Source: Phycisphaerales bacterium (GTDB lineage Bacteria; Planctomycetota; Phycisphaerae; Phycisphaerales; UBA5793). From it: a stretch of DNA of 64,000 nucleotides. The notes below the pieces were generated by a model that saw only the letters and a list, made by a program, of their open reading frames with translations, did no database searches and had not been told where the DNA came from. The position numbers were made by a program, and so were the translations under genes. The DNA lies in NCBI GenBank assembly GCA_020852515.1, contig JADZAS010000015.1:248001-312000 (forward strand), in the 5' to 3' direction. How positions within the stretch are numbered: the stretch's first letter is position 1; each line of letters starts with the position of its first letter. Shown here one piece after another: positions 10,937 through 31,492 of the stretch.

Positions 10937-12114
10937 TCGGCGAGCCACGGCGAGCCGCCGCCGAAGATCGCGCTCAGAGGCGCGATCGCTTCATCGCTGC
11001 CCTCCAGCCGCCCCGCCGCTCTTGCCTGCCAGGGCGTGAGCAGTCCTGAATAGAGCGACGCCAGGCCGCGGACGCTGACGCGCACGTCGCCGCGACCTGC
11101 CTCGCGCTGTACCGTCGCCCTGCCGCCTTCGACGCGAAGCAGCCAGCGGCCGTGGTTGATCTCGGGCAGCACGGCGTCGTCGTGTACGTCGAGGTGAATC
11201 TCAGCACTTACGCCCGGCTCATAGCCGCGCGCTTCGAGCGCTTTGCCGACGTCGAGCAGTCGGAGCATCCACTGGTCTTTCACTTCGTCGCGGATGTGCT
11301 GCTCGCGCAGGTTCTGGTGCAGCGCGTCGCCGGGATGGCCGTGCCAGATGACGTCGCCGACCATCGAGCGATGGTCGGCAAAGAAGCGCAGCAGGCGCAG
11401 CGCAGCCGTCTGGGTGATCGCAACGAGATCAGTGCAGTAGAGGTTGTACGACCGCGTCGGCGAGTCCTGGTGCGCGTAATAGACGTATCCCTCGACACCG
11501 TGGTCGCCTTCGACGAGAAAGCCGCGCGCCGGCTCATTGCGGTGATGGCGGGCCCGGGTCCAGACGTAGGGGCCGCGATCGAGGTGCCCGTTTACATGCC
11601 GCGCCCGCTGCTCATAGCACTGCTCGACATCGGCCAGGTCCGCCGGCGCGATCTCCCGCAGGTGCAGATCGCGATGGCGCGCGTCGATGGCGGCAGTGGG
11701 CAGGATGCAGCGGTAGAACGTGCCCGCCTGCTCGTATCCGGCGCGCTGGTAGAGCGGCTGAGTGGCGGGGTAGAGCGAGGTGATGGGGTATCCCATGCCG
11801 TGCATCTCGCGCACCGCCGCGCCCATCAGCGCGCTGGCGGCGCCTTGGCCGCGCATGTGCGGGTCGATTCCCACGGCGGCGATCCCGGCCATCTTCACCG
11901 ACCGGCCGCCGAAATACTGCCCCATATGAACGATGACCAGCCCGCCGACCACCGAGCCGCCGTGCCGCAGTACGCGCAGATTCTCGTGGCCTGACACTTC
12001 AAAGAACTGCGGCACGCGCTCGCGCAGGAAGTTGAAGGTTTGTCGCAGAATCTCGCCCAGCGCCGCCCGCTCGCCATCGCTTCCGGGCACGCCATATTCG
12101 AAGTCCTGGCTCAT
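10927..12114 (-). CDS. Eis-like GNAT N-acetyltransferase with C-terminal SCP2-like domain
   Basis: 395 residues with the three-part layout of the Eis family. The N-terminal GNAT domain has the acetyl-CoA motif AVGIDPHMRGQGAASALMGA (about 82-101). A Tyr in QPLYQRAGY sits at the position of the Eis general acid. A second, degenerate GNAT domain follows, then a sterol-carrier-like domain (VSVRGLASLYSGLLTP). The protein ends in Phe (LADHF), as Eis does, where the C-terminal carboxylate takes part in catalysis. Known Eis enzymes acetylate amines such as aminoglycosides or lysines; the natural substrate here is unknown. GGAGAGG lies just upstream of the ATG. Confidence 0.85.
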   Translation of the reverse strand: MSQDFEYGVPGSDGERAALGEILRQTFNFLRERVPQFFEVSGHENLRVLRHGGSVVGGLVIVHMGQYFGGRSVKMAGIAAVGIDPHMRGQGAASALMGAAVREMHGMGYPITSLYPATQPLYQRAGYEQAGTFYRCILPTAAIDARHRDLHLREIAPADLADVEQCYEQRARHVNGHLDRGPYVWTRARHHRNEPARGFLVEGDHGVEGYVYYAHQDSPTRSYNLYCTDLVAITQTAALRLLRFFADHRSMVGDVIWHGHPGDALHQNLREQHIRDEVKDQWMLRLLDVGKALEARGYEPGVSAEIHLDVHDDAVLPEINHGRWLLRVEGGRATVQREAGRGDVRVSVRGLASLYSGLLTPWQARAAGRLEGSDEAIAPLSAIFGGGSPWLADHF

Positions 12115-14841: not shown

Positions 14842-15576
14842 ATGAACGACACGAGATGCAAGTTGCTCCTTGCAGGCGCCGCCGTCGTCGCCTGCAGCAT
14901 GTTCGGCGCGACTCGCGCCGACGTGATGACCAACGCCGGCTTCGAGAACATGATCTCCACCACAGGACCGCTGCCGACGGACTACGGCTATTGGCGCGGA
15001 GACATGACCAACATCCTCCATGGGGAGAACGACATCAATCCGTTCGAAGGCCTGTGCATGCTGCGCTTCGATCACACGACAGAGCACGGCTCTTCGCCGG
15101 CAACCGGCTCGGAACTCTGGCAGGTGCTCGACGTGTCGTCGTTCATCCCGCTGATCCGATCCGGCGGAGCGATCGCCGATGCAGGCGCCTGGTTCAATCG
15201 CGTGGGCCCGCCCACCGAGACGCCCGTTGACACGATGTTCGCGCTGGGCGTGTACGCATACGCCGGCGAGGTCGGCTCGTTCCCCGCGCAGTGGGGCCAT
15301 GGCGAGCTTGGCTCAGCCATGCTCACCCTTGACTCCGACAGCCACATTGAGACGTGGGAGCAGATCGCCCTGCAGTGGAACCTGCCTCAGGCAACGGACT
15401 TCATCGCGATTCGCGTCTGCGCCTCCGAGAACGTCTACAACGACGTCACGGGCAATGAATTCGCAGGCCACTATGTGGACGGCGTTGGGTTCACCATCAT
15501 TCCCACGCCGGCCTCGATCGCGTGCCTCCTGCCCGCGAGTCTCCTGCTGCTGGGTCGAAGGCGTCGCCAGCCGTAG
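14842..15576 (+). CDS. exported protein with PEP-CTERM-like tail, paralogue 1 of 3
   Basis: 244 residues: a signal peptide (MNDTRCKLLLAGAAVVACS... ending TRADV), a ~195-residue beta-rich domain, then a sorting tail. The tail reads IIPTPASIACLLP, a hydrophobic stretch and GRRRRQP, the tripartite layout of PEP-CTERM signals but with Pro-Thr-Pro instead of Pro-Glu-Pro. The domain shares with its two neighbours the motifs GFENM, YGYWRGDM, ENDINPFEG, GSELWQVLD, FAGHYVDGVGFTIIP. This could be a jelly-roll/carbohydrate-binding-like fold, but I do not recognise the family. Exosortase-type processing is inferred from the tail; no exosortase gene is in the window. Confidence 0.8.
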   Translation: MNDTRCKLLLAGAAVVACSMFGATRADVMTNAGFENMISTTGPLPTDYGYWRGDMTNILHGENDINPFEGLCMLRFDHTTEHGSSPATGSELWQVLDVSSFIPLIRSGGAIADAGAWFNRVGPPTETPVDTMFALGVYAYAGEVGSFPAQWGHGELGSAMLTLDSDSHIETWEQIALQWNLPQATDFIAIRVCASENVYNDVTGNEFAGHYVDGVGFTIIPTPASIACLLPASLLLLGRRRRQP

Positions 15577-15611
15577 CCGCGGGCGCAGCGTCCGACCATG
15601 CCTTCAAAGAG

Positions 15612-15640
15612 GGGGCTCGGCCTGAGGGGGGCCGAGCCTC
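15612..15640 (+). terminator. hairpin after paralogue 1, terminator-like
   Basis: The inverted repeat GGCTCGGCC (15614-15622) / GGCCGAGCC (15630-15638) with a 7-nt loop lies about 35 nt after the stop. It is followed by TCTCTTCG rather than a clean T-run, so termination efficiency is uncertain. Confidence 0.6.
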
Positions 15641-15763
15641 TCTTCGGCGAGGGGGCACCTTACCGACCCAGAACATCCCACGATCAGGGTGTCCCAGGCG
15701 GCAACCCGGCGTGCCGCGGTAGGCAAAAACCTCGGCAGTTTTTGCAAATCTTCCGGCGTTCCC

Positions 15764-15792
15764 TTGCATTATCGCCGGAGTTGTGGTATTCT
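15764..15792 (+). promoter_or_regulatory. sigma70-like promoter of PEP-CTERM-like paralogue 2
   Basis: TTGCAT (15764-15769) and TATTCT (15787-15792) are separated by exactly 17 nt, in an AT-richer stretch 71 nt before the ATG. TTTTGCAA at 15740-15747 just upstream recurs at 16781-16788 before paralogue 3 and could be a shared element. Confidence 0.65.
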
Positions 15793-15862
15793 AACGGGTC
15801 CGAATAGGTTGCGCGCTTGCGCGAACCTGCTTCGGTGGGACCTGTTTTACGGGGAGAGTGAG

Positions 15863-16597
15863 ATGAAATCTGCTATTCGCAGCGTCGCGTCCTTCGGTGC
15901 AGCCGCGGCCGTCTTTGGCGCCGCTGGCGCGGTCCAGGCTGACATGATTTCCAACGCAGGCTTTGAGACGATGGTCTCGACCACCGGCACCCTGCCCAAC
16001 GGCTACGGGTACTGGCGCGGCGACATGAGCACGATCGTCGGCATCGAGAACGACATCCTGCCGTTCGAAGGTGTTTGCATGCTTCGCTTCGACAACACGA
16101 CGCGGAACGGCGCCTCGGGCTCGGTCGGCGCGGAGATCTGGCAGATCATCGACGTTTCCTCGTACGAATCGATGATCCGCTCAGGCAACGGTCAGATCGA
16201 CGCCGGCGCGTACTTCAACCGCATCAACCAGTCGCTCGGCTCAGCCGTGGACAGCATGTTCTCCATCGGCGTGTATGCCTACGCCGGTTCGGCGGACACG
16301 TTCCCGAGCCAGTGGACTCGCAACGAGCTCGGCTCGAGCCAGTCCACCTTCCTCAGCGATGGCGATCTTCAGTCCTGGCAGCAGGCGTCGCTGTCCTTCC
16401 TCCTCCCGCAGGCGACCGATTTCGTGGTCCTGCGCCTCAGCGCGACCGAAAACATCTTCAATGACATCACCGGCGCCGAGTTTGCCGGTCACTACGTGGA
16501 TGGCGTGGGCTTCACGATCATCCCGACGCCGGCTTCGCTGCTGTGCCTGGCACCCGCCGGCCTGGTCGCCCTCGGCCGCCGTCGCCGCCGCGCATGA
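15863..16597 (+). CDS. exported protein with PEP-CTERM-like tail, paralogue 2 of 3
   Basis: 244 residues, the same layout as its neighbours: signal peptide (MKSAIRSVASFGAAAAVFGA ending VQADM), beta-rich body with YGYWRGDM, ENDILPFEG, EIWQIIDVSSY and FAGHYVDGVGFTIIP, then the tail IPTPASLLCLAPAG and a final GRRRRRA. The ATG at 15863 is preceded by GGGGAGAG and agrees with the start of paralogue 1; the frame is open upstream to 15689 but that part has no signal peptide. It has its own promoter and terminator, so it is probably transcribed alone. Function unknown; likely a surface or matrix protein. Confidence 0.8.
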   Translation: MKSAIRSVASFGAAAAVFGAAGAVQADMISNAGFETMVSTTGTLPNGYGYWRGDMSTIVGIENDILPFEGVCMLRFDNTTRNGASGSVGAEIWQIIDVSSYESMIRSGNGQIDAGAYFNRINQSLGSAVDSMFSIGVYAYAGSADTFPSQWTRNELGSSQSTFLSDGDLQSWQQASLSFLLPQATDFVVLRLSATENIFNDITGAEFAGHYVDGVGFTIIPTPASLLCLAPAGLVALGRRRRRA

Positions 16598-16624
16598 GTC
16601 TGCACTCCAGCTAAACGTTGCACG

Positions 16625-16658
16625 CGACCCGGCCCAAGCGGCCGGGTCGTTCGTTTTT
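16625..16658 (+). terminator. intrinsic terminator of paralogue 2
   Basis: 10-bp stem CGACCCGGCC (16625-16634) / GGCCGGGTCG (16640-16649), 5-nt loop, then TTCGTTTTT. The same stem recurs in the terminator after paralogue 3. Confidence 0.85.
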
Positions 16659-16987
16659 GGATGCCGGCGGCAGTGCCGGACCGGATCGGGAGACGTTGCG
16701 GCGTCACTGGCCGCAAGCATGAGCATCGTTGGATTTCGAAACGGCGGTGTCTCGCGTGCGAGGCGCGCGTCCGAGGCTCGTTTTGCAAGGTATTTGCTTA
16801 TAGGCATTGATATCGCGTCAAAAACGCGGATTTTGAGAAATTCAGTCGGAGCGTTTTTCGGCGAAATCGCGCCAAATCGGTAGCCGGCTGGACCGGAGCG
16901 ATTAACCTATCGTGTGGATGATCGATGGATCACGGCTCGTGCGTGGTTCATGAAACTGATTGCTCACCTCATAGGGAGAAGAGAGAG
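16659..16987. other. AT-richer intergenic region upstream of paralogue 3
   Basis: 329 bp without a supportable gene and visibly richer in A/T than its surroundings between 16781 and 16870. Seen: TTTTGCAA at 16781-16788 (also present before paralogue 2) and a spaced inverted repeat TCAAAA (16818-16823) / TTTTGA (16831-16836) that could be an operator. I cannot place a convincing -35/-10 pair. It probably carries the promoter and regulation of paralogue 3. Confidence 0.4.
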
Positions 16988-17725
16988 ATGAAACCATCGA
17001 AGTACACAGTGCTTCTCATCGGTGCGGCCGCAGCCATTGGCACGGCCGGCGTTGCGGAGGCGGATGTGCTGGTCGCCAACGGGGGGTTCGAGACCATGAC
17101 CGAGACGACCGGCGCCCTGCCGACTGGCTACGGCTACTGGCGTGGCGACCTGTCGTCCATCGTGGAGCAGGAGAATGACATTCGCCCATTCGAGGGCGTG
17201 AACATGCTCCGCTTCAATGCCACCACCGTCAACGGGGCCGCCCCGTCGATGGGCTCCGAACTCTGGCAACTTGTCGACCTGTCTGACTACCGGTCGATGA
17301 TCAACTCAGGGAACGGTCGAATCGACGGCAGCGCGTTCTTCAACCGCGTCGCGGACAACTACTCGATCGACGTGGACACGATGTTCTCCGTCGGCCTGTA
17401 TGCCTACTCGGGCGACGCGAGCACGTTCCCCGCGCAGTGGGGCCACAACGAACTCGGCGCCACCCAGTCGAGCATCCATAGCGACGGTAACGTCGGCACT
17501 TGGGAAGAGGCTCGCCTGAGCTTCATCCTTCCCGAAGAGACCGACTTCATCGCCATCCGCATCGCCGTTTCCGAAGACGTCTACAACGACGTGGCGGGCC
17601 AGGAATTCGCCGGCCACTACGTTGACGGCGTGGGATTCACCATCATCCCGGCTCCGGCCTCGGTCCTTTGCCTCCTGCCCGCGGCAGGGTTCCTCGGTAT
17701 CGGACGTCGCCGCCGCACGGCCTGA
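16988..17725 (+). CDS. exported protein with PEP-CTERM-like tail, paralogue 3 of 3
   Basis: 245 residues. Signal peptide (MKPSKYTVLLIGAAAAIGTAG ending EADV), the same body as the two upstream paralogues (YGYWRGDLSS, ENDIRPFEG, SELWQLVDLSDY, FAGHYVDGVGFTIIP), then IPAPASVLCLLPAAG and GRRRRTA. The ATG at 16988 is preceded by GGGAGAAGAGAGAG. Its terminator repeats the stem found after paralogue 2, so gene and terminator seem to have been duplicated together. The sigma/anti-sigma pair begins 126 nt downstream. Confidence 0.8.
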   Translation: MKPSKYTVLLIGAAAAIGTAGVAEADVLVANGGFETMTETTGALPTGYGYWRGDLSSIVEQENDIRPFEGVNMLRFNATTVNGAAPSMGSELWQLVDLSDYRSMINSGNGRIDGSAFFNRVADNYSIDVDTMFSVGLYAYSGDASTFPAQWGHNELGATQSSIHSDGNVGTWEEARLSFILPEETDFIAIRIAVSEDVYNDVAGQEFAGHYVDGVGFTIIPAPASVLCLLPAAGFLGIGRRRRTA

Positions 17726-17851: not shown

Positions 17852-18529
17852 GTGGAAAAACGCATGGCCGGCACTGAAACCCAACGCGACATGGCGCGCG
17901 CGGACACGTCGGCCGGGGGTGCGTCTCGATCCCGCTCCGGACAGATCTCGCCCGGCGAGTTTGCGGCGCTGTTCGAACAGTCCTTTCGGGTCCTGTGGTA
18001 CATTGCCCTCGGCCTGATTCACGATCGCAACCTCGCCGAAGACGTGGTGCAGGAAGCCGCGATCATCGCCCTTGGCAAGCTGGATCATTTCCAGCGGGGC
18101 ACGAACTTTGTCGCCTGGATGGGCCAAACGGTGCGCTACGCCGCTCTCAACCTCGCCCGACGCAATCGACGCCACACCAGCGCCTCCACAGACCCCGCGC
18201 TCATCGACGCCGACCCCAGCCAGCCGCCGCGCGGCGAGCGCGGCAAGGCCGACCCGCTCCGCCTCGCCGCCGACTTCTCCCTGCCCGGCGGCCAGGACGC
18301 CTTTGACGACCGCCTGCTCCGAGCCCTCGACGGCATCAGCGACACCGCCCGGGCCTGCCTGCTGCTCCGCACGATCGAAGGCATGGAGTATCGCGAGATC
18401 GCCCGCACGCTCGACATCGCCGAAGGCACCGCCATGAGCCACGTCCACCGGGCGCGCACCGCACTGCGCGACCGGCTCGCGGATTCGGCCGGGGCTACCA
18501 GCCGCCCCGGCGGGAGGGAGGGCTCATGA
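17852..18529 (+). CDS. ECF-type RNA polymerase sigma factor
   Basis: 225 residues. The sigma-2 region is at about 36-105 (ALFEQSFRVLWYIALGLIHDRNLAEDVVQEAAIIAL, interrupted here by no gap; then FVAWMGQTVRYAALNLARR). A linker of ~45 residues precedes sigma-4 (LRALDGISDTARACLLL, GMEYREIARTL, EGTAMSHVHRARTALRD). This is the layout of planctomycete ECF factors. The stop overlaps the next start (ATGA at 18526-18529), so sigma and putative anti-sigma are translationally coupled. TACATT at 17840-17845 lies 6 nt before the GTG; the ATG at 17864 is an alternative start. Targets are unknown; the adjacent exported paralogues are candidates. Confidence 0.9.
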   Translation: MEKRMAGTETQRDMARADTSAGGASRSRSGQISPGEFAALFEQSFRVLWYIALGLIHDRNLAEDVVQEAAIIALGKLDHFQRGTNFVAWMGQTVRYAALNLARRNRRHTSASTDPALIDADPSQPPRGERGKADPLRLAADFSLPGGQDAFDDRLLRALDGISDTARACLLLRTIEGMEYREIARTLDIAEGTAMSHVHRARTALRDRLADSAGATSRPGGREGS

Positions 18530-19368
18530 GCACGACCCCCTCCCAACAGCACGATTCCGGCAGCGCCCTCGATCGCTACCTCGATGGCCTGATGTCAGCC
18601 GAAGAGCGCAGCGCGTTCGAGGCCCGCCTGGCTGAAGACGCGGTGCTCGCCGGCGAGATTCAACGTCAGCGGCGCATCGACGACGGCCTGAACCGCTATG
18701 CCCAGCCGCCCGCAGCCGATCGCGTGCTTGCCGCCATCCGCGCGCACATCGAAACGGCTGGCTACGACGAGGCACGCGCGGAGCAGCGTCCGCCGCAGAT
18801 GAAACTGCGTCTGCCCGCTACGTGGCGCCGCTTTGCCGTCGCGGCCGCGCTGCTGCTGGGCATCGTGGGCATCTGGCAGATCGTCTCGGTCATGACCGGC
18901 GCGCCGGAAGGCGACTACGACTCCGGGCCGCATCGCAGCGTCATGCAGGCCTACCACCACACGGTCGATTCGGGCTTCAAGGAGGAGTGGGTCTGCAGCG
19001 ACGACGCCGTCTTTGCCATGGTATTCCAGGATGCGTTCGGCCAGATGCTGTCGATGAACCTGCCGCTGCCGCCGGGCGTGGATGCCAAGGGGCTGAACTT
19101 CTTCAACATCTTCAGCAACAAGACCATCGGCGTGCTGGCGGTGGTCGAGGATCAGCCGGTGATGGTGTTCATCGATCGTCTTGAGAACGAGGATCGTGAA
19201 CCGCCGCCTCAATCTGACTCGGGGCTGCGCGTGTTCCGGCGCGAACTCGGTTCGCTGGTCTTATTCGAGGTCACACCGCTCGATGCGCCCGCGCTGGTCG
19301 AGCATCTCACCGTGCCCGATCGGCTGCCCGAACCCGTCCAGCCGCAGCCCGAGCCGCCGCAGCGCTGA
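18526..19368 (+). CDS. membrane-anchored anti-sigma-factor-like protein
   Basis: 280 residues. The cytoplasmic N-terminal part (ALDRYLDGLMSAEERSAFEARL) matches the start of anti-sigma domains, which hold the sigma factor at the membrane, but it lacks the HxxxCxxC zinc motif. One membrane segment follows at about 103-122 (RFAVAAALLLGIVGIWQIV), then a ~155-residue outer domain. Coupling to the ECF gene by a 4-nt overlap is the strongest argument for the role. The C-terminus ends in a Pro/Glu/Gln-rich tail. No Shine-Dalgarno sequence is needed if translation is coupled. Confidence 0.78.
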   Translation: MSTTPSQQHDSGSALDRYLDGLMSAEERSAFEARLAEDAVLAGEIQRQRRIDDGLNRYAQPPAADRVLAAIRAHIETAGYDEARAEQRPPQMKLRLPATWRRFAVAAALLLGIVGIWQIVSVMTGAPEGDYDSGPHRSVMQAYHHTVDSGFKEEWVCSDDAVFAMVFQDAFGQMLSMNLPLPPGVDAKGLNFFNIFSNKTIGVLAVVEDQPVMVFIDRLENEDREPPPQSDSGLRVFRRELGSLVLFEVTPLDAPALVEHLTVPDRLPEPVQPQPEPPQR

Positions 19369-19560: not shown

Positions 19561-21138
19561 TCAATTGCCGGCTTCCTCCGCCGCCTGATTGTCGTCAGCG
19601 GGCAAGTCCTCAGACTGCCCCGCCTCTTCGAGGTCGGACCAGGGATCGCGAAACGTATTGAAGATGTAGTCGTAGCCGTGCCCCTCCGTCGCATCGCTCA
19701 TGGCCATCCACTCGCGCCCGCCGGGCACCTGTTTACCGCCGTTGTCGGTCCCGTCGAGGCCGACGCTATAAAGCCACCAGGACCGAGGGTCGTCAGCGGT
19801 CGGCTGGCGCGCAGTGAAGACGAAGCGTTGACCGGAAATCGGATCGCCCGGAACTTCCGACAGAAACTCCGGGGCGAGCGCGTCGAGCCCGTCGGGGATT
19901 CGGCCGTACTTCGCTTCGAACCCCTCAATGGCGACCAGAACGCGCGTAGCCTCGTGCAGGGCCCTCCCGCCTCGGGCGGCATGCATGGCTCGCGAAATCG
20001 CGGGCAAAAGCAGGCCGAGGAGTTCATTGCGATCGGCCACCTCCTCGGCGAAGACATCGAGATCCACTGGTGCTGCGGCCTGCTCGGCGGCTGTCATCGT
20101 GCACTGTGCGATCGCAGCGTCGAAGTAGTCATTGACGAGTCGCGTCGTCTCCGCCCGGCCAGGCTCGAGGAGGCCAGTGACGTTGAAGATCGGATGCGAC
20201 TCCAGAGTCGGTGGGGCGCCACTCATGCCATCGGAAATCCTGGCCAGTTCGGACCTGAGCAGGATGCCGTCTCCGCGGCCGTCATCCGAAAAGACGCGCT
20301 GAATCGTGTCCAGTTGCGACAGGCGCTCCGCTTCGAGCGCAAGCAACTGCGGCGCAACGCGGTGCCGTTCCAGCATCTCCAGCAGCCGCCTGCACGTCGC
20401 CTCGTCGAGTTGTTTGTCCACGACCGCGCAAGCGATTTCGGCGTTGACAAGACTGGAGACGGCTATCCCGACGAGATGGCTTATGAGGAAGGGATCGTGC
20501 GATGTGATCCGCGCTATCGCCAGGCTGTGCTCGGTCGAGCGGAGGAACTGCTCGGTGTCACCCGCCTCGAGCGAGGCCCGCATGCGCGATGTTGACATCT
20601 TCGCCAGGCCGCGCGCCTGTCCAAGTTCGGGAAGCAGCACAAAGAGCATGCCAGAGCCCGTGCCTTCAAAGCTCTCCCGCACAGCGCGCGGTGCGCGGGC
20701 GGCGGCGTCGAGAGCATCGAGCACACCCGCCTGCTCGGCGTGCTCGATCAACGCCAGTTCAAACCTCACGCGATGCGGATCGAATTCGCCCTGGAGGATC
20801 CGCGTGTAGCCTTCGATGTCGTACTGCACATTCTTGTCCGTCGGCCAGTCGGGGCGATCGGGGTGGCCCATGCCGCGGAAGCGCTCGGTGGCGTCAACGA
20901 AAGCGGCCCAGCCGTTTTCACCTTCGGGCTGCAGGCTGGCGCTCAGTTCGGCAAGCTTCTGCGGATAGTCGACGAGCGGTCCGGGCCGCGCGGTGACCGC
21001 CCCGATGATGATCCACACCACCCAGCCGCACAGCAGCAGTGCAACGATGAGAATGACATAGCGCTTTCGAACGCGGCCGGTGCGATGCAAGACGGGGCGA
21101 TGCGTAACGGAGGCGTCGGTCTGCTGGGAGATTCTCAT
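19561..21138 (-). CDS. membrane-anchored protein, tandem family member A (last in the row)
   Basis: 525 residues, family not recognised. A short basic N-terminus with GRVRKRYVILIVALLLCGW gives one membrane segment (about 24-47) with a positive-inside anchor. The rest (~475 residues) should be outside the cytoplasm. The ectodomain starts with RPGPLVDYPQKLAEL and ends with the conserved block RFVFTARQPTADDPRSWWLY, SVGLDGTDNGG and YDYIFNTFRDPW. It is helix-rich, with cysteines in the middle (AEIACAVVDKQ, EATCRRLLEML). Three paralogues follow upstream on the same strand with 60-75 nt spacing, so the four probably form one operon read from 25867 downward. This copy is the most divergent at its C-terminus, with an acidic extension. 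Confidence 0.7.
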   Translation of the reverse strand: MRISQQTDASVTHRPVLHRTGRVRKRYVILIVALLLCGWVVWIIIGAVTARPGPLVDYPQKLAELSASLQPEGENGWAAFVDATERFRGMGHPDRPDWPTDKNVQYDIEGYTRILQGEFDPHRVRFELALIEHAEQAGVLDALDAAARAPRAVRESFEGTGSGMLFVLLPELGQARGLAKMSTSRMRASLEAGDTEQFLRSTEHSLAIARITSHDPFLISHLVGIAVSSLVNAEIACAVVDKQLDEATCRRLLEMLERHRVAPQLLALEAERLSQLDTIQRVFSDDGRGDGILLRSELARISDGMSGAPPTLESHPIFNVTGLLEPGRAETTRLVNDYFDAAIAQCTMTAAEQAAAPVDLDVFAEEVADRNELLGLLLPAISRAMHAARGGRALHEATRVLVAIEGFEAKYGRIPDGLDALAPEFLSEVPGDPISGQRFVFTARQPTADDPRSWWLYSVGLDGTDNGGKQVPGGREWMAMSDATEGHGYDYIFNTFRDPWSDLEEAGQSEDLPADDNQAAEEAGN

Positions 21139-21198
21139 GTTGCATCAGAGGACCGCCGGGACCGGCCGGCAAGTCCTGATCGGCCATCAACGCGACAT

Positions 21199-22710
21199 CT
21201 ACCGCTCGTCGCTCACGGGATCGCGCAGGCGGTTGAAGACGTAGTCCGCCTGCAGCGTGGCATCGTACACCGCCCTCGATCGATCGCTCACGTGCTCCAC
21301 CCCGCCGTTGTCCACGCCGTCGGCTCCGAACGAGTACAGCAGATACGGCCGCGGGTCCTCCGCCGCCGGCTCGCGCCGCATGTAGCCCAGCGGCTGGCCG
21401 CTGATGACGTCTGGCGGGATCGAGTCGAGGAAATCGGGAGCGAGTTGGTCGAGCGATTCGGGCCAGTCGCCGTGCCGCGCGTGCCACATTTCAAGAGCCA
21501 GCATGACCCGCGTTGCCTCGACGTTGACCACGCCGGATTCGTGCGAGGAAACCAGCCTGCCGATGGCCGGCAGCATGAGGCGAAGGAAGATCTGAAACCG
21601 CGGCAATTGCGCGACGTACTCATCGAGGTCAACGCCGTCGGCCTCGCGCTGCGGCCGCGTCTTCTTCGCCTGCTCGACGGCGAGATCGAAGAACTCATCG
21701 AGCGTGCGCTTCGTCTCGGCCCGGCGCGGCAGGACAATGCCGGCGACGTTGACGATGGGATGCCGCAGTCCGCCGCCGCTTCCGCCGCCCGTGTAGTTGG
21801 CCAACTCCTGCAGCTTGCTCATGAGCAGGATGCCGTCGCCGCGCCCGTCGTCGGAGAAGGTGTGTTGTATGATGTCGTACTGCGCGAGGCGCTCGCGCTC
21901 GAGCACCGCGCTGACCGGCGCGAGCACGGGCCGCTCGTCGATGACCGCCAGCAGACGCTGGCACGTGGCTTCATCGATTTCATGCTCCGTAAGGATGCGG
22001 TTGAGTTCCTGCGTGCCCAGTGCCAAAATGGCGACGCCGACGAGATCGCTGATGATCGTGGGGTCATAAGACATGGCGCGCGTGAGGGCGAGGGTGTGCG
22101 ACCACGCGCGGACGAGTTCATCCATGTCGCCGCGCTCGGCGGCCACGCGCATGGCGGCCACGCGGGCCCGCGCGGCGCTTCGCGCCAGGCTCAACTCCGG
22201 TAGCAGCACAGCCAGGAGCCCGGCATCATCGTCGCCTTCGAAAGCCGTGCGCACCGCCCGCGGGCAGGCGGCGAACTCATCGAGACGCTCGAGCACGCCC
22301 GAGGCGCGGATGTGTTCGAGATACGCAAGTTCAAACTTGAGCCGCTCGGGATCGAACGGACCTTCGAGCACGCGATGCAGCGAGCGGGCATCTTCGGCGA
22401 CCTGCCGATCGTCGGGCCAGTCCTCGCGCTCGGGCAGGCCGATCGCCTGGAGCTGGTCCAGCGCCTCGGTCATGATGGTCCACCCGTTGTCGCCGGGCGG
22501 CTGGAGGCTGGCGCTCATGTCAAGCATCTGCCCGGCGTAATCGACCAGCGGGCCGGGTCGCGCCGTCACGGCCCGGTAGATGGTCCAGCCGAGCCAGCCC
22601 AGCAGCAGCAGCGCGATGATGAGGATGATGTAGCGCTTGCGCACCCGGCCGCGGCGCGGTGGAGCGAAATGCGCGCGTGATGCTGCATCAGAGGCGGCGG
22701 GGAGTCTCAT
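21199..22710 (-). CDS. membrane-anchored protein, tandem family member B
   Basis: 503 residues, same architecture as member A: MRLPAASDAASRAHFAPP, GRVRKRYIILIIALLLLGW (membrane segment), RPGPLVDYAGQMLDMSASLQP and a long helical ectodomain. Shared internal blocks include DDGRGDGILLMSKL and the C-terminal FGADGVDNGGV and DYVFNRLRDP. I start it at the ATG 22710, where the N-terminus aligns with member C. The open frame upstream to 22788 translates the repeated intergenic block and lacks family similarity. No enzyme motif is recognised. The EATCQRLLAVI segment aligns with the same position in A and C. Confidence 0.72.
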   Translation of the reverse strand: MRLPAASDAASRAHFAPPRRGRVRKRYIILIIALLLLGWLGWTIYRAVTARPGPLVDYAGQMLDMSASLQPPGDNGWTIMTEALDQLQAIGLPEREDWPDDRQVAEDARSLHRVLEGPFDPERLKFELAYLEHIRASGVLERLDEFAACPRAVRTAFEGDDDAGLLAVLLPELSLARSAARARVAAMRVAAERGDMDELVRAWSHTLALTRAMSYDPTIISDLVGVAILALGTQELNRILTEHEIDEATCQRLLAVIDERPVLAPVSAVLERERLAQYDIIQHTFSDDGRGDGILLMSKLQELANYTGGGSGGGLRHPIVNVAGIVLPRRAETKRTLDEFFDLAVEQAKKTRPQREADGVDLDEYVAQLPRFQIFLRLMLPAIGRLVSSHESGVVNVEATRVMLALEMWHARHGDWPESLDQLAPDFLDSIPPDVISGQPLGYMRREPAAEDPRPYLLYSFGADGVDNGGVEHVSDRSRAVYDATLQADYVFNRLRDPVSDER

Positions 22711-22840
22711 GTAAGATGAGAGGAGCAGCGCGGCGATCTGGCAAGTCTCGCGGACGCGGATTTGCGACGCCCGGCGCCGACGCCTCAACGATCCTCCACC
22801 GGCTCGCGCAGGCGGTTGAAGATGTAGTCGTAACCTGCCC
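22603..22840. repeat. duplicated junction block, copy 1
   Basis: About 235 bp nearly identical to 24192-24426. It covers the N-terminal coding end of member B, the intergenic gap and the C-terminal coding end of member C. Identical stretches include the gap sequence around CAAGTCTCGCGGACGCGG. It marks recent tandem duplication or gene conversion. Confidence 0.75.
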
Positions 22841-24299
22841 CATCGACCTCATCGATCAGCGCGGCGGTTGGGTCGTCTTCGAACTCTACCGCTCCGTGGT
22901 CCTGCAGATCGACGCCCACTGAGTAAAGCAGATACGTGCGCGGGTCTTCGACGGTCGGCTCGCGCTGAACATAGCCGAACGGCAAACCGCTGACAGCGTC
23001 GATCGGCAGCGCCTCGATGCACTCGGGCGCGAGTGCATCGAGAGTTTCAGGAAGGCGGCCGTGAATCGCTTCGTACATCTCGATGGCAATGGCGATGCGC
23101 ATTGCGGCAAGGCGAGACTGCCAGGCGGGCTGTGAACTCAGCACCCGGTCGAGGAACGGCAGAAAGAACCGTCCAAACACCTGCCGCTCGGGCAATTGAT
23201 CGCGCAACTGCTCCCCATCGAACGGATCGGCGTGCCGCTCGGCCCGCGAGTAACGGGCCTGCTGAATGGCGGCATCCATGTAAGCATCAACCAACTGCCG
23301 CGTCTCCGCACGACTCGGATAGGCGATGCCGATGACGTTTGCGATCGGGTGATCAACCGAACCGAATCGAGCGGACCACGGGTTCTGGCCCGACAACCGC
23401 TCGATCCAGCTGGGAATGAGCAGGCCATCGCCGTTGCCATCATCGGTGTGTGTGCGCTGAATCAGATCGCGCATCATCAGGCGATCCCCTTCCAAGGCAA
23501 CTGAAAGCGGCAACCCAATCTCTTCGCTTGGAAGTATCTTCAGCAGTGCGCGGCAGGTCGCCGCATCAAATTCGTGTTCAATCAGCAGGCAGTTCATTTC
23601 CTCGCAGGCAATCTGGACAATGCTCTTGGCCACCATGTGAGACAGGACGCATGGATCGCCGGTGGTCGCCGCTGCAAGCCGGTTCAGATCGTGGAACGCA
23701 GAGAGCAGTTCGCCGGTGTCGCCGCGCTCGGCGGCAAGGCGCATCGAGCCGCGACGTACTTTCGCAACCGCACGCGCTGGCCGGACCTCGGGCAGCGCAA
23801 TGCCAATCATTCCGTAGTCGTCCATGTCGAAGACCGTTCGCACGAAGCGAGGCGCCTCCAGCGCCGCCTGGACTTCGCGAAGCGCATCGGAGCCCTCCAC
23901 GAATTCGACGTAGGCGATTTCAAGTTCGACGCGTGTCGGTTCAAATGGGCCCTTCACCAGAGCCTTGAGGTCCTTCACTTCGCTCGATTGATCAGGATCC
24001 GTCGGCCAGCCGTCGATCGCCGGGTCGTCCAACGCGTCAAAGCGCGCCAGCGCAGCCGAAAGTGCTGGCCATCCATTCTCACCCTCCGGCTGTGCCGACT
24101 CAGACAAGGCTCGGAACTGCACGGTATAGTCCACCAGCGGATTCGCCTTCGCCGACACGATGCGGAAGAGCTTCCATCCAGCCCAGGCAGTGAGCAGCAG
24201 CGCGATGATGAGGATGACGTAGCGCTTGCGCACCCGGCCGCGGCGCGGCGGGGCGAAATGCGCGCGTGATGCTGCATCAGAGGCGGCGGGAAATCTCAT
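22785..24299 (-). CDS. membrane-anchored protein, tandem family member C
   Basis: 504 residues. MRFPAASDAASRAHFAPP and GRVRKRYVILIIALLLTAW are almost identical to member B. After the membrane segment the ectodomain diverges (ANPLVDYTVQFRALSESAQP). The C-terminal block YLLYSVGVDLQDHG and YDYIFNRLREPVEDR is shared with A, B and D. The ATG at 24299 was chosen by alignment with B; the frame is open to 24623, but the extra ~108 residues are Arg-rich antisense-like sequence overlapping member D. No known domain is seen. Conserved N-termini with divergent ectodomains suggest a common anchor and different partners. Confidence 0.72.
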   Translation of the reverse strand: MRFPAASDAASRAHFAPPRRGRVRKRYVILIIALLLTAWAGWKLFRIVSAKANPLVDYTVQFRALSESAQPEGENGWPALSAALARFDALDDPAIDGWPTDPDQSSEVKDLKALVKGPFEPTRVELEIAYVEFVEGSDALREVQAALEAPRFVRTVFDMDDYGMIGIALPEVRPARAVAKVRRGSMRLAAERGDTGELLSAFHDLNRLAAATTGDPCVLSHMVAKSIVQIACEEMNCLLIEHEFDAATCRALLKILPSEEIGLPLSVALEGDRLMMRDLIQRTHTDDGNGDGLLIPSWIERLSGQNPWSARFGSVDHPIANVIGIAYPSRAETRQLVDAYMDAAIQQARYSRAERHADPFDGEQLRDQLPERQVFGRFFLPFLDRVLSSQPAWQSRLAAMRIAIAIEMYEAIHGRLPETLDALAPECIEALPIDAVSGLPFGYVQREPTVEDPRTYLLYSVGVDLQDHGAVEFEDDPTAALIDEVDGAGYDYIFNRLREPVEDR

Positions 24300-24426
24300 A
24301 TGAGATGAGAGCAGCCGCACGGCGATCTGGCAAGTCTCGCGGACGCGGATTTGCGACGCCCGGCGCCGACGCCTCAACGCTCCTCCGCCGGCTCGCGCAG
24401 GCGGTTGAAGACGTAGTCGTAACCGG
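24192..24426. repeat. duplicated junction block, copy 2
   Basis: Partner of 22603-22840. It covers the N-terminal coding end of member C, the gap and the C-terminal coding end of member D, with only scattered substitutions. Confidence 0.75.
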
Positions 24427-25867
24427 CGGAGCCTCTTTGGTCCGTGAGCGCGTTTGGGCGCCTGCCGTAGTCGTTCAGCGGCGGCTCGACTCCGCCGTTG
24501 TCTTCGCCATCCGCTCCCACGGAATAGAGAAGGAACGTGCGCGAATCGTCGGCGTTGGGTTCGCGCACGACGTACCCGAACGGGCCACACCCGACCGGAT
24601 CGGATCGCTGGCCTACGCGCCACTCGTCGATCGCCTCCGCGAGCGATTCGGGCGCGCGGCCGTGGCGGCCCTGGTACACCTCGATGGCCAGCAGCAGCCG
24701 CGTGGCATTCACGACGCTGCCGTGCGCATCGGCGGCCGTGATGGCGCGCTCGCCGATGGGCAACGAACGGCTGAGGAAGTCATACTTGTGGGGGACAAGG
24801 GTGAAGTTCATAAACCTGTCGAAATCGAACGGGTGATTCGCGCGCTCGACGCGCGACATGGCGGCCTGTTCGATGAGTGCATCAAAGTACTCGTCTGCCA
24901 GTTGCTTCGTCTCTTCACGGTTCGCCTGGATGATTCCCTTGAGGTTCTCGATGCTCGCCGGCGACGGGCCGGGCGGGGCATCCACGTTGCCCAGGCGCGA
25001 CATGATCACCTGGCCGCCGGCGGTGTGCGTGCGCTGGATGAGGTCGTAGACCATCAGCCGCTCGCACTCGAAGACCTGGGAGACCGGCGCCAGGCGGACT
25101 CGCTCATCCAAGAGAGTCAGGAGCGTGCCGCACACGGATTCAGGCACTTGACGCTCACCCAGAGTGAGCGCGAGTTCATTGCAGGCGTTTGTGACGAATG
25201 AACTCGCAAGCAGATATCCAAGGATGCTCGGCTCCTGGCTTGCAGCGCGCGCGAGAGTCAGGAGATCGTTGAATGCAAGCGCGAACTCCGCCCAATCGCC
25301 GGACACTGCGGCAACGCGCATCGAGGCGCGGCGCACCTTGCCAAGGCGACGCGCCTGCGCCAGCTCATCGGGCGCGAGCGATCCGATCAGTGATCGATCG
25401 CCCTCGACGTCCAGTTCAGGGCGAGTGAACCGCTGATAGCGCGACAGGTCGCCGAGCGCCTTGAACACGCCGGCCTCACGAAGGTCGGCAAGGTAGGCGA
25501 GTTCCGCCTCAAGCCGTCCCGCTTCAAAGTCGCCTCTCACGACCGAGTCCAGGTCGGTCGGGCTCGGCCGCCCCAGCGCATCAGGCGCTTCAGGCGCCGG
25601 CACCGCATCGAATGCGGCAAGCGTCTTCACGTAAGCCGTCCAGCCGTTCTCATCGTCGGCGTGCCGCGTCTCCAGCAGGTCGATGACCTGCGCTTCATAA
25701 TCGACATATGGCCCCGGCTTGGCGAACAGCAGTCGCACGACGGTCCACCCCGCCCAGCCGAGCAGCATCAGCATGACGAGCAGAACTATGTATCGCTTCT
25801 TCACTCGACCGAAACGAGTCGCGCCAGGATCGCGTGCATACGCCGTCGCTGTGGTGTTGCCTTTCAT
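24374..25867 (-). CDS. membrane-anchored protein, tandem family member D (first in the row)
   Basis: 497 residues. N-terminus MKGNTTATAYARDPGATRFG, then RVKKRYIVLLVMLMLLGWAGW (basic residues plus one membrane segment), then KPGPYVDYEAQVIDLLETRH. The body has the family blocks around ECERLMVYDLIQRTHTAGG and EVYQGRHGRAPESLAEAI, and ends YSVGADGEDNGG ... YDYVFNRLREPAEER. The block linking a helical region to RHGRxPESL-like and GxDGxDNGG-like ends recalls the C-terminal domains of type II secretion pseudopilin-like planctomycete proteins, but this is only a resemblance. Likely the first gene of a four-gene operon. Confidence 0.7.
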   Translation of the reverse strand: MKGNTTATAYARDPGATRFGRVKKRYIVLLVMLMLLGWAGWTVVRLLFAKPGPYVDYEAQVIDLLETRHADDENGWTAYVKTLAAFDAVPAPEAPDALGRPSPTDLDSVVRGDFEAGRLEAELAYLADLREAGVFKALGDLSRYQRFTRPELDVEGDRSLIGSLAPDELAQARRLGKVRRASMRVAAVSGDWAEFALAFNDLLTLARAASQEPSILGYLLASSFVTNACNELALTLGERQVPESVCGTLLTLLDERVRLAPVSQVFECERLMVYDLIQRTHTAGGQVIMSRLGNVDAPPGPSPASIENLKGIIQANREETKQLADEYFDALIEQAAMSRVERANHPFDFDRFMNFTLVPHKYDFLSRSLPIGERAITAADAHGSVVNATRLLLAIEVYQGRHGRAPESLAEAIDEWRVGQRSDPVGCGPFGYVVREPNADDSRTFLLYSVGADGEDNGGVEPPLNDYGRRPNALTDQRGSAGYDYVFNRLREPAEER

Positions 25868-25941: not shown

Positions 25942-27090
25942 TCATCTGCCGCCGCGCTTGGGCGCCTTGATGATCTTCCACTCGAGCATCTGGTCGCTGG
26001 GCACCGACACGGGCACGGGCTGCCAGCCCCAGAGCATCGGCTTGCCGTCGCGCCCTTCGGCGCGCACGCTGGCCGGTGGATGGAAGTGATAGGAAATCGG
26101 CACCATCAGGTTCAGTTCATCGTTGGTTCCCACGCCGGGCCACTCGCGGTTGAGGTCGTGCATGCGGCCGGGCGCTTTGAACAGCGGGCGGAAATCGACG
26201 GCGATCCAGCCGGCAGTCGGCACGTAAAACTCGGCCCATGAGATGATGCGCTTGTCGTCGTCCTTGAAGTCGCGGCCGCGGTCGTCGTCGAGCATCTGGA
26301 TGCCGATGACCGGGCGCGCGGGCAGGCCGGCAGCGCGGCAGACGGCCACGAAGAGGCACACGCAATCGTGCGACGTACCGCGCATGTTTTCCACCGACTT
26401 GAGCGCGCCCTGTACTTCGAGGCCGGCGAACTTGTTGAGTTCATCATTGAACCAGTTCTTGCCGCTGATCTGAAAGTTCTGCACCGTCAGGCGCGTCAGT
26501 TCCTTGCCCAGCACAAACGGCGGGGCGGATTTCGCCTTGCCGTTGGTCCACTTTTCGAGCAGTTGCACGATCTGCTCGCTGGTCGATTCGACATAGCGCT
26601 GCGGCTGCAGTTCGCTCGACACTTCGGCAGGCCACTTCTCCGGCCAGCCGATGGCGCGCAGCCGGGCTTCATCCACTTTCGCGTTGTAGCAGGTGACGAA
26701 CTCTTCGAGCGAGTACTCTATCTGCTTGCCCTTGAACTTGGGCACGTTGAAGCGAGCCAGCCGCCCGTCGGCCTGCGCCGTGGGCAGGATCTCGAACTTG
26801 GATTCCGCGGGCCGGTCGTCGAGTTCGAGGACGGTCTTGAGGCGCTCCATGTCAATGGTGTGATACGCCCCATTGGGGATGATGGGGAACACGAGCGGCG
26901 CGTTCTCCAGGTTGAGTTCGTACTGATCGTCGGCGTTGAAGCGGCTCTGGAACGCGGTCACGTAGCCGGTGATCGTCAACTGATACTCGACCGGCTCGTA
27001 ACGCTTGATGGCGTCGCTGAGCGGCGGCGAGGCCAGAGTGGTGGCGGCGGCGGCGAGCGACGCGGCAGCAAAGAGTGCAGTGGCTTTCAT
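25942..27090 (-). CDS. exported transglutaminase-like protein, apparently lacking the catalytic Cys and His (copy 1)
   Basis: 382 residues with a signal peptide (MKATALFAAASLAAAATTLA). The C-terminal part has the transglutaminase-like core: SHDCVCLFVAVCRAAGLPAR, then IISWAEFYVPTAGWIAVDF. In active members the first block carries the nucleophilic Cys and the second begins HAW. Here, aligned by eye, the Cys position is Ser and the His is Ser; the Asp of the VDF segment remains. It is therefore probably a non-catalytic or altered fold. The N-terminal ~200 residues are unrecognised. GTG at 27102 is an alternative start. A paralogue lies upstream with a 129-nt gap, same strand. Confidence 0.72.
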   Translation of the reverse strand: MKATALFAAASLAAAATTLASPPLSDAIKRYEPVEYQLTITGYVTAFQSRFNADDQYELNLENAPLVFPIIPNGAYHTIDMERLKTVLELDDRPAESKFEILPTAQADGRLARFNVPKFKGKQIEYSLEEFVTCYNAKVDEARLRAIGWPEKWPAEVSSELQPQRYVESTSEQIVQLLEKWTNGKAKSAPPFVLGKELTRLTVQNFQISGKNWFNDELNKFAGLEVQGALKSVENMRGTSHDCVCLFVAVCRAAGLPARPVIGIQMLDDDRGRDFKDDDKRIISWAEFYVPTAGWIAVDFRPLFKAPGRMHDLNREWPGVGTNDELNLMVPISYHFHPPASVRAEGRDGKPMLWGWQPVPVSVPSDQMLEWKIIKAPKRGGR

Positions 27091-27219
27091 GGTGAATCTC
27101 ACTTGCGGCGGAGGCGGCGCGAACGAGCGCTGCGGCGATCCGCCGGTCAGGGTTTGTGGTTATGCGCGAACGCCGCGCGGTCGAGGTCCATTCAATCAAT
27201 GATACCGGGCAGTTACCTC

Positions 27220-28329
27220 TCACTTTTGCGGTGCGCGGCGAGGCGCGCGATCGACTTCGATTTTCAGCGTCCCTCTCGCGGCGCCGTTCCGGCGGTCCTC
27301 CGGGATCACTTCCCACGCCCAGAGCAGCGGATCAGGCGCCGGTTCCGGCGACTTGTGAATCGGCGGCGCGTAAAAGTAGCACGACAGCGCAATGCGCTCG
27401 TTGAGGTCATCATCGTTGGCCAGGCCGGGCCAGGGGCGGTGGATGTCCACCATCGAGCCGGGGCTGCCAACGAGGCGCTCGAAGTCGACGGTCACCCAGC
27501 CGGCGTCGGGCACGTAGAATTCGGCCCACGAAACGAGCGACTCCTCCTGCTCGCCGGAGTCGATGCCGATGATCGGCCGCGCGGGAAGGCCCGCGGCCCG
27601 GCACACCGCGACGTAGAGGCACACGAGATCGTTCACCGAGCCGCGCTGGTTCTCGATCGCCGCCAGCGCGCCCTGCACGCGGATGGCCGTGATGACCCGC
27701 TGCCGGCGCGAGCCCGGCTCGAGCGACACTTCGACTGGCTCGCCGTCGACGCGAACGAACCCGACGGACCGGCGGGCGAGTTCCTTGCCGAGATGAAACG
27801 GCGTGACCGATCGGGGCTCGCCCCCCGTCCACGCGTTCATCAGGTCCACCACGCGCTGGTTGAATGACTCGATATACATCTGCGGCCGCAGCGCCCAGTC
27901 CACTTCGATCGGCCAGGCGTTGGGCCAGTCAATCGCGGCGAGCGCGGCTTCGTCGGCCTGCGCCGAGTACGCCGTGACGTACTCCGTTATGCGCATCTCG
28001 TTCGGGTATGACCCGCGCGAGCCGCGCTCGATCGTGGCGTAACTGCCCATCGACGGGAGGTCGATCGGCCGGGCGCTCCAGTCGGGCTTGTGGCGATCGA
28101 AGGGCGCGCCGGCGACGAACTCGTCGAAACGCTGCATGTCGATGTGGTGATACTGGCCTTCCTTGAACAGCGGCATCCAGAGCGTCTTGCGGCCCAGGTG
28201 AGGGACCGAAATGTCCATCTGCACTTTGTATTCGATGGGATCGACGCGCTGAATGAGGCCGGCCCCGACCGGCGGCGCGGCCGGCGGCTGAACAAGCGCC
28301 AGCGCCATCGTGGCGATGTGCACAGTCAC
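27220..28329 (-). CDS. exported transglutaminase-like protein, apparently lacking catalytic residues (copy 2)
   Basis: 369 residues, paralogue of the gene downstream. The N-terminal hydrophobic stretch (MTVHIATMALALVQPP) is a short export signal. Shared blocks: YHHIDMQRFDEF, SVNDLVCLYVAVCRAAGLPA, SLVSWAEFYVPDAGWVTVDF. The position of the catalytic Cys is Val and that of the His is Ser. The GTG start at 28329 has AAGGAG 6-7 nt upstream. The C-terminal half also contains a conserved PLLWAWEVIPED, matching PMLWGWQPVPVS in copy 1. Role unknown; binding rather than cross-linking seems more likely. Confidence 0.72.
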   Translation of the reverse strand: MTVHIATMALALVQPPAAPPVGAGLIQRVDPIEYKVQMDISVPHLGRKTLWMPLFKEGQYHHIDMQRFDEFVAGAPFDRHKPDWSARPIDLPSMGSYATIERGSRGSYPNEMRITEYVTAYSAQADEAALAAIDWPNAWPIEVDWALRPQMYIESFNQRVVDLMNAWTGGEPRSVTPFHLGKELARRSVGFVRVDGEPVEVSLEPGSRRQRVITAIRVQGALAAIENQRGSVNDLVCLYVAVCRAAGLPARPIIGIDSGEQEESLVSWAEFYVPDAGWVTVDFERLVGSPGSMVDIHRPWPGLANDDDLNERIALSCYFYAPPIHKSPEPAPDPLLWAWEVIPEDRRNGAARGTLKIEVDRAPRRAPQK

Positions 28330-30701: not shown

Positions 30702-31070
30702 TCATTCTTCTGGTTCATCGCACTTGGGCGGCTCCGCTACCGCCGGAGCGAGCTGTGCAACGAGCTTCGGCACTTCGACGGTTGCGACGTGCCACAGTCG
30801 ATCGTGTTCGAGAAAGAAGTAGCCGTGCGCGATGACGTTGCGCTGCTGAACGATCGCCCGCCACGGGATTCCGTCGTACTGCTTCTTGAATTCGTCGGAC
30901 AGTGAACGCGCGGCCTCGCCGATGACCTCGATGCATCGCTCGACGGCGATCTGCTTCACCTCGTCGGCGCTGTACTGTGGCCAGGATGTGTCTTTGAGCA
31001 GCCGGGCAAGACGCTCGCCCCATTGGACGATGTCCCAGACACGCGCCATGTCGCTGTCTTCAGGCCGCAT
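30702..31070 (-). CDS. HepT-like HEPN-domain ribonuclease toxin (DUF86)
   Basis: 122 residues. The HEPN active motif RX4HXY is present exactly, in RNVIAHGYF, inside WRAIVQQRNVIAH. In HepT proteins this motif forms the RNase site in a dimer, and the Tyr is adenylylated by the partner MNT protein. Upstream helices (CIEVIGEAARSLSDEFKKQY) fit DUF86. Start ATG 31070 lies inside the end of the MNT gene (11-nt overlap), typical for this pair; the frame is open to 31184 but that would overlap the MNT gene deeply. The tail is acidic (CDEPEE). Confidence 0.88.
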   Translation of the reverse strand: MRPEDSDMARVWDIVQWGERLARLLKDTSWPQYSADEVKQIAVERCIEVIGEAARSLSDEFKKQYDGIPWRAIVQQRNVIAHGYFFLEHDRLWHVATVEVPKLVAQLAPAVAEPPKCDEPEE

Positions 31071-31377
31071 GCCGATGAATGACCTGGCGATTGGACAGGA
31101 TGTGCTTTCGCCGATATGGGTTTCGCACGGACCGCTTCTCAACAAGGTCGACGGGGCGACCGAAGATGGCACTGAGTTGGTCACTCATGGCCCCCCAGTC
31201 CCAATACGTCCAGGGAGCACCATCCTCGAAGACCACGAGCACATCGACATCGCTGTCGGGGCGGAAATCATCCCGCAATACCGAGCCGAAGAGTGACAGT
31301 TCGACCACTCTCCACTGCTGACAGAAGTCGATTACTGCCTCGTGATCGTAGGTCAGGTTATTGTGGACTCTCTGCAT
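31060..31377 (-). CDS. MntA-like minimal nucleotidyltransferase antitoxin
   Basis: 105 residues. The signature GSX10DXD is seen exactly: GSVLRDDFRPDSDVD, followed by VLVVFEDG. In the HepT/MntA system the nucleotidyltransferase transfers AMP to the HEPN toxin and silences it. The start at 31377 (MQRVHNNL) has GAGG 8 nt upstream; an ATG at 31395 is also in frame. TAGAAT directly upstream could be the -10. Together with the overlapping HEPN gene this forms a type VII toxin-antitoxin module. Small open frames and a repeat-poor setting around it mark an accessory patch. Confidence 0.87.
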   Translation of the reverse strand: MQRVHNNLTYDHEAVIDFCQQWRVVELSLFGSVLRDDFRPDSDVDVLVVFEDGAPWTYWDWGAMSDQLSAIFGRPVDLVEKRSVRNPYRRKHILSNRQVIHRHAA

Positions 31378-31492
31378 CCCGTGATCCTCAGCCATCGGAT
31401 TCTATTGCCAAACTCTCCAGGCGCCTTCATCGGCCGCCAAATCGGGCTGGCAAGCACGGTCCATGCACCCCCGGGCGCATCTGTCAGGCCAG

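Follow-up and report, generated by a model that had tools for sequence, protein, structure and literature searches.

What kind of protein is encoded by a row of four related genes that match no named family, and what maintains several copies side by side? The question is raised by 64,000 nt of DNA from a Phycisphaerales bacterium (assembly GCA_020852515.1, contig JADZAS010000015.1, positions 248,001 to 312,000; the window is this whole stretch), in which an original prediction had described four tandem ~500-residue paralogues of an unrecognised, membrane-anchored family. The four paralogues, P1-P4, are real and occupy 19561-25867 as minus-strand open reading frames (ORFs). The C-terminal head of these proteins has a GspG-like pseudopilin fold, a result that is well supported by sequence profiles and a structural model. 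That P1-P4 serve as anchored extracytoplasmic scaffold or adaptor proteins carrying this head is a role we infer, and we regard it as evenly balanced between right and wrong. The starts of P2 and P3 were set by a conserved upstream box and differ from those of the mechanical ORFs. In the lines below, G001 to G004 are the other genomes of the genus.

19561 to 21138, minus strand: P1, 525 aa, first member and closest to the anti-sigma gene; groups in the tree with G002 and G003 copies
21199 to 22710, minus strand: P2, 503 aa, member 2; 86% identical to a G004 copy, in a clade with a G001 copy
22785 to 24299, minus strand: P3, 504 aa, member 3, start ATG at 24299; 87% identical to a G004 copy, in a clade with a G001 copy
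24374 to 25867, minus strand: P4, 497 aa, member 4; 82% identical to a G004 copy

The mutual relatedness of P1-P4 is far beyond chance (E-value (E) ≤5.4e-80 in a search of their own genome); identity to P1 is 47% for P2, 39% for P3 and 35% for P4. As predicted, all four combine an R/K-rich N-terminal stretch with a single hydrophobic segment and a C-terminus that is conserved. The two motifs ascribed to the C-terminal block hold in part: G-x-D-G-x-D-N-G-G is exact in P1, P2 and P4, whereas P3 reads GVDLQDHGA, and the NRLR(E/D)P portion of Y-x-(Y/F)-N-R-L-R-(E/D)-P is exact in P2-P4, whereas P1 reads NTFRDP. The middle parts, which had been called divergent, are only modestly less conserved, with mean paralogue identities of 35, 40, and 38% in three parts vs 44% in the C-terminal domain; the best-conserved stretches are the tail (74%) and the basic/transmembrane segment (63%). 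The full proteins deserve the name unrecognised, since Pfam and NCBIfam gave no acceptable match to them, just a few weak ones to P1 (E 0.055-0.11, far below the cut-off). A profile search of the PDB with the four proteins returned two chance-level matches, and a literature search, judged from titles and the starts of abstracts, found nothing on the family.

The C-terminal block can be recognised as a GspG-like pseudopilin domain by sequence profile, Foldseek and VIA.

19633 to 19998, minus strand: pseudopilin (GspG)-like C-terminal domain and tail of P1 (residues ~381-502); P2-P4 finish with an equivalent block

When a profile built from 46 C-terminal domains was compared with solved structures, its match to P. 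aeruginosa GspG (2kep) had E 2.5e-6. The profile's 19 matches also included seven more GspG-type chains (E 0.095-0.99), the remainder being haemoglobin and T-cell receptor chains with weak E-values and one other chain. When single domains were searched against PF08334 (T2SSG), 17 of the 46 matched at E ≤1 (best 0.0015); none of the four full proteins matched this family at E ≤10, and TIGR01710 (gspG) was matched by two of 14 full proteins (best E 0.047). The P2 C-terminal domain was folded alone (predicted local distance difference test score (pLDDT) 80.5, predicted template-modelling score (pTM) 0.73), and the model has a long helix ahead of the beta part. The eight best Foldseek matches of this model were GspG chains from three entries (probability 0.92-0.99, E 0.026-0.083), followed by type IV pilins; the six best VIA matches were also GspG (Z 7.8-9.4), among them 3g20 with Z 9.4 and 3.3 Å over 97 residues. 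In its own genome the head profile found eight places at E ≤0.01, all eight of them family members. An hhalign comparison with six GspG-like stretches of the same genome gave a probability of 93.5; it was run without a null and is not used as support. Four results weigh against the assignment: no Foldseek match of the head reached E ≤0.001; 2kep, the best sequence match, has a VIA Z of just 4.8; a head profile built from the 14 array members ranks GspG third at E 1.5, significance being reached only with the broader 46-domain profile; and GspG is not among the 50 best matches of the whole-protein structure search.

The head shares with GspG (PF08334, the major pseudopilin of the type II secretion system, T2SS) its fold and, weakly, its sequence profile, with the long helix, P-x-(S)-L, D-P-x-x-G-x-P, and an LYSxGxDG loop. 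P1-P4 differ from GspG in that they have no prepilin N-terminus, carry the domain as a C-terminal head behind an arm and a membrane segment, and have an altered calcium loop. According to PMC3396595, the loop G-x-D-G-x5-D-D of pseudopilin 3G20 coordinates calcium, and a review (PMC10574481) states that changing calcium-coordinating aspartates impairs secretion. The P1-P4 family has the G-x-D-G start of the PERCAL-type loop (G-x-D-G-x-x-[GN]-[TN]-x-D-D, as given in PMC3396595), as does 3G20, but continues as G-x-D-G-x-D-N-G-G without the following D-D, and P3 lacks the second G. All 14 array members share two invariant aspartates in this region, and calcium binding by the head is plausible from sequence; the full motif in just nine of 14 members and the missing D-D end speak against it.

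The sequence G-(F/M)-(S/T)-x-x-E is the class III prepilin signal, and it was sought ahead of the hydrophobic helix. None of the 14 array members carries it, while the positive control detected it in all three own GspG sequences tested; in the wider set it was found in one of 68 (GLTRWE, in a frame with an uncertain start). Because this signal is missing and ~330 mostly helical residues precede the head, we concluded that the head is pseudopilin-like and the protein is not a pilin. DUF1559 pilin-like proteins have many paralogues in planctomycetes, a pilin-related N-terminus and a prepilin signal at the start; P1-P4 have no Pfam match to DUF1559 at E ≤10.

20965 to 21084, minus strand: P1 residues 19-58, comprising the basic stretch and the sole membrane segment, from sequence conservation and the AlphaFold model

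The AlphaFold model of P1 (14 sequences; pLDDT 80.9, pTM 0.80) contains helices from residue 25 to 411 and places the membrane helix at residues 25-48. R/K residues precede the hydrophobic segment, which suggests an N-in, C-out topology for P1-P4; the proteins are probably anchored and face out of the cytoplasm, in keeping with the predicted membrane-anchored ectodomain. The residue after the hydrophobic segment is alanine, invariant among array members, and a cleaved signal peptide is possible on that account, which would count against an anchor. The position two before this alanine varies (A, V, L, I, M, T) and argues mildly for an anchor over a cleaved signal. No cytoplasmic output or sigma-binding domain was found in P1-P4; ~25 residues precede the membrane segment, and residues 1-16 have pLDDT <50. 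Kinship with helical-repeat (tetratricopeptide-like) proteins was also considered. In the whole-protein structure search VIA Z was ≤8.8, many of the best rows were designed helical proteins, and the Pfam scan of P1-P4 detected no repeat family.

According to the scaffold or adaptor reading, each protein would begin with a short, basic N-terminus in the cytoplasm, followed by a single membrane anchor, a mostly helical extracytoplasmic arm of ~330 residues, a GspG-fold head and a short tail. The arm would extend into the periplasm, and the head, probably calcium-stabilised, would bind a partner that differs between paralogues. Two further results weigh against this role. The arm has no convincing relative among solved structures, the whole-protein search giving low-confidence, mostly helical matches, and no partner emerged from a survey of genes beside family members off the syntenic site, including dispersed genus copies. 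In this survey 216 frames were reduced to 192 by a length filter, 111 of which were Pfam-scanned, with long frames cut to 300 aa; among the 25 of 85 matched families listed, no Pfam family occurred in more than four of the 111 neighbours. If the assignment of the head is right, an unnamed family of many Planctomycetota can now be approached through structure, by way of a pseudopilin-like head employed outside pili.

The family is widespread in planctomycetes rather than local, and it is unnamed in Pfam and NCBIfam, as judged from profile searches. Its own genome has eight members (E ≤3e-27), the four in the row plus four elsewhere: C15:227849 (same contig, 38 kb away), a tandem pair on C30 (one copy is interrupted by a TAA) and a single gene on C5. 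A second search agreed on these eight; five more partial matches have E ≥9.5e-4. A four-protein profile matched 39 of 41 genomes of a genus-to-order sample at E 0.001, and a 14-protein profile matched at least 124 of 392 genomes of a phylum sample at E 1e-5, a lower bound as at most three candidates were scored per genome; many of the phylum matches span just part of the profile. Tandem members are also found in other genera, for example five in locus L085 and four in L081. L081 lies in G027, a genome that belongs to a different taxonomic family; there a SpoVR gene (9559-11226, 63% identical) stands among the four members, much as SpoVR neighbours the row here.

With a GspG-fold head in a genome that has five T2SSG matches at E ≤2.2e-18, P1-P4 could be adaptors of type II secretion or of a pilus-like machinery, the head docking on or mimicking the pseudopilus and the arm positioning it. 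We consider this unlikely. No gsp gene was found beside the row (its annotated neighbours encode sigma, anti-sigma, transglutaminase-like, CBS and SpoVR proteins), the T2SSG matches lie elsewhere, and the sole one on the same contig is ~59 kb off. T2SS families were likewise absent among the 25 listed Pfam families of the 111 surveyed neighbours.

The row occupies a syntenic site, at which the gene order in the genus is SpoVR, CBS, one to three transglutaminase-like genes, array, anti-sigma, sigma and secreted-protein-like genes. The anti-sigma gene adjoins the row on the opposite strand, as had been noted. The immediate neighbours in the window are as follows.

17852 to 18529, plus strand: extracytoplasmic function (ECF) sigma factor, syntenic neighbour in five genus genomes
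18526 to 19368, plus strand: anti-sigma factor, syntenic neighbour, convergent with P1
25942 to 27102, minus strand: transglutaminase-like protein TG1, syntenic neighbour
27220 to 28329, minus strand: transglutaminase-like protein TG2, tandem neighbour of TG1

Copy number varies between species at this same site: four copies here, three in G004, two in G001 (one of them interrupted by an in-frame TGA), one in G002 and at least one in G003, where the contig ends. The prediction held that single-copy orthologues elsewhere would speak against an expansion; one P1 orthologue does fill the same slot in G002, but there are four copies in this genome, three in G004 and two in G001. A tree was built from 41 of 68 collected proteins, leaving out loci above L075 and rows of >700 or <300 aa. 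P1 groups with G002 and G003 (100/100), P2 with G004 (100/100) and less firmly with a G001 copy (93/89), P3 with G004 and G001 (100/99), and P4 with G004 (100/100). Since P1-P4 sit in separate clades with copies of other species, the copies predate the split from G004. The ratio of nonsynonymous to synonymous substitution rates (dN/dS) between this genome and G004 is 0.18 for P2, 0.19 for P3 and 0.25 for P4; with five regions per pair, the highest regional value is 0.51, in the short transmembrane segment of P3. The array members are thus old and maintained under purifying selection. In G004 two genes, presumably FG-GAP-like, lie between the array and the anti-sigma gene (L049 12836-16247), at the place of P1 here. 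Family copies with one internal stop occur at L050 9706-11214 and G000:C30:113340-114773 and may be pseudogenes or assembly errors. The transglutaminase-like tandem pair (25942-28329, minus strand) has one to three frames in relatives.

Each gene of the row is preceded by a promoter-like box.

21139 to 21173, minus strand: box of P1, CTTGCC-N18-TCTGAT-N5 before ATG
22711 to 22745, minus strand: box of P2
24300 to 24334, minus strand: box of P3
25868 to 25902, minus strand: box of P4

The upstream consensus of array genes is CTTGCC-N18-TCTnAT-N5-ATG, its halves lying at -35 to -30 and -11 to -6 relative to the ATG, as for a promoter starting at the ATG. A loose pattern gave 13 matches in the five genomes (~23 Mb) and none in the reversed control; 12 of the 13 stand directly before array-type genes, i.e., 12 of 16 such genes, with none in G002. 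The sole other match is at G001:C70:31519-31556 (L113). A matrix trained on thirteen of the 15 boxed genes scores 15 of 16 array genes at ≥19.6 (C52b has no box), including 27.0 and 21.0 for the two G001:C63 copies outside the training set; elsewhere the matrix scores no higher than 15.4 in the scanned loci of the genus and 15.6 in 0.38 Mb of DNA from other genera. Dispersed array-type genes bear the box, and the C30-type loci L057-L060 are without it in the matrix scan. Three first members of C30-type arrays (L057-L059) share another upstream stretch, approximately GAGACATGTC, then TGTAG(G/T)ATGA before the ATG. Before the 15 boxed genes the best match to AGGAGG is one to four of six positions (four in K4 only), compared with five for PEP1, ASIG and TG2, four for PEP2 and PEP3, three for SIG, and two for TG1 and SpoVR among eight neighbour genes; weak leaders thus also occur outside the array. 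The box is probably a private promoter giving a leaderless mRNA, and every array gene in the window would be transcribed in this way from its own promoter. We also considered whether the box could be the promoter by which the adjacent sigma factor controls itself; this is unsupported, as the matrix found no such box upstream of the sigma gene in the five genomes.

These results bear on the proposal that P1-P4 form a variable sensor or receptor system coupled to the neighbouring genes for an ECF sigma and an anti-sigma factor. These two genes adjoin the array in all five genus genomes, and one hydrophobic segment with an outward domain would suit a receptor. The matrix found no box before the sigma gene in five genomes, so control by the adjacent sigma factor is not supported, and boxed array-type genes also occur away from the sigma locus (G001:C52, G003:C25 and G003:C38). 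P1-P4 have no output domain, and because the members are old and under purifying selection (no region above 0.51), a diversifying receptor is not supported either. We found the sensor or receptor proposal unsupported and think it improbable.

Possible sequence exchange between the copies was followed at the joints between genes, and DNA conservation in the gene tails.

22604 to 22838, minus strand: joint of P3 end, promoter box and P2 start, which matches the P4/P3 joint at 94% identity over 235 nt
24193 to 24427, minus strand: matching joint of P4 end, promoter box and P3 start, partner of the P3/P2 joint
21221 to 21246, minus strand: 26-nt conserved element in the tail of P2, with counterparts in P3 (22804-22829) and P4 (24393-24418)

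In G004 the joints before K2 and K3 are 91% identical over 256 nt. At the start of the coding region, over 40 nt, identity is 95% between paralogues of one genome (in each of the two) but 80% between orthologues of the two genomes; over the following 40 nt this gap is gone (95 and 100% vs 95 and 100%). P2 and P3 are 94% identical in residues 1-18, and each is 72% identical to its own G004 orthologue. The pattern suggests gene conversion on a short stretch after the species split. Across species and loci, the codons of the tail (DY-I/V-FNRLR) agree in their DNA more than the shared residues would explain: 678 of 898 cells are identical, where 453 would be expected from the coding of these residues in other parts of the 15 genes, and this window ranks first among 486 (the cells are not independent). 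The 26-nt pattern, allowing ≤3 mismatches, was matched 12 times in the five genomes, each time in the tail of an array gene (12 of 16 genes); the reversed pattern had no match. The tail element may be a regulatory, recombination or RNA element, and together the promoter boxes and tail codons lead to concrete hypotheses on regulation and recombination. One such extension, speculative and with only a small chance of being right, is that these are planctomycete-wide anchored decoy or adaptor pseudopilins, in which each paralogue would plug into one pseudopilus-like machine under a private leaderless promoter, and the start and tail boxes would let the middles recombine.

The row could alternatively be a passing tandem amplification, its copies arising and being lost by birth and death and gene conversion without distinct functions. 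The similarity of the P2/P3 joints, the varying copy number and the internal-stop copies in G000:C30 and G001:C63 would fit. We find this very doubtful, because dN/dS of 0.18-0.25 for the G004 orthologues of P2-P4 and the P1 clade with G002 and G003 copies indicate that copies are maintained. A polymerising family of genuine but strongly derived pseudopilins or pilins, which the fold and the long helix before the beta part would allow, is highly improbable given the class III signal missing in 14 of 14 array members and the ~330 residues from membrane segment to head.

A few other features were noted in the window and in relatives. At 14842-17725 (plus strand) lie three tandem paralogues of ~243 aa that end in a hydrophobic segment and RRRR and whose number seems to vary in the genus; we take them to be PEP-CTERM-like, and an NCBIfam scan of them gave no match at E 0.01. 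At L094 846-2151 a 435-residue frame, which we assume to be TraB-like, contains an internal T2SSG-like stretch above the Pfam cut-off (E 7.7e-8). Overlapping small genes at 30702-31395 (minus strand), with relatives beside SpoVR in G004 and G001, presumably resemble a HEPN/MNT nucleotidyltransferase pair.

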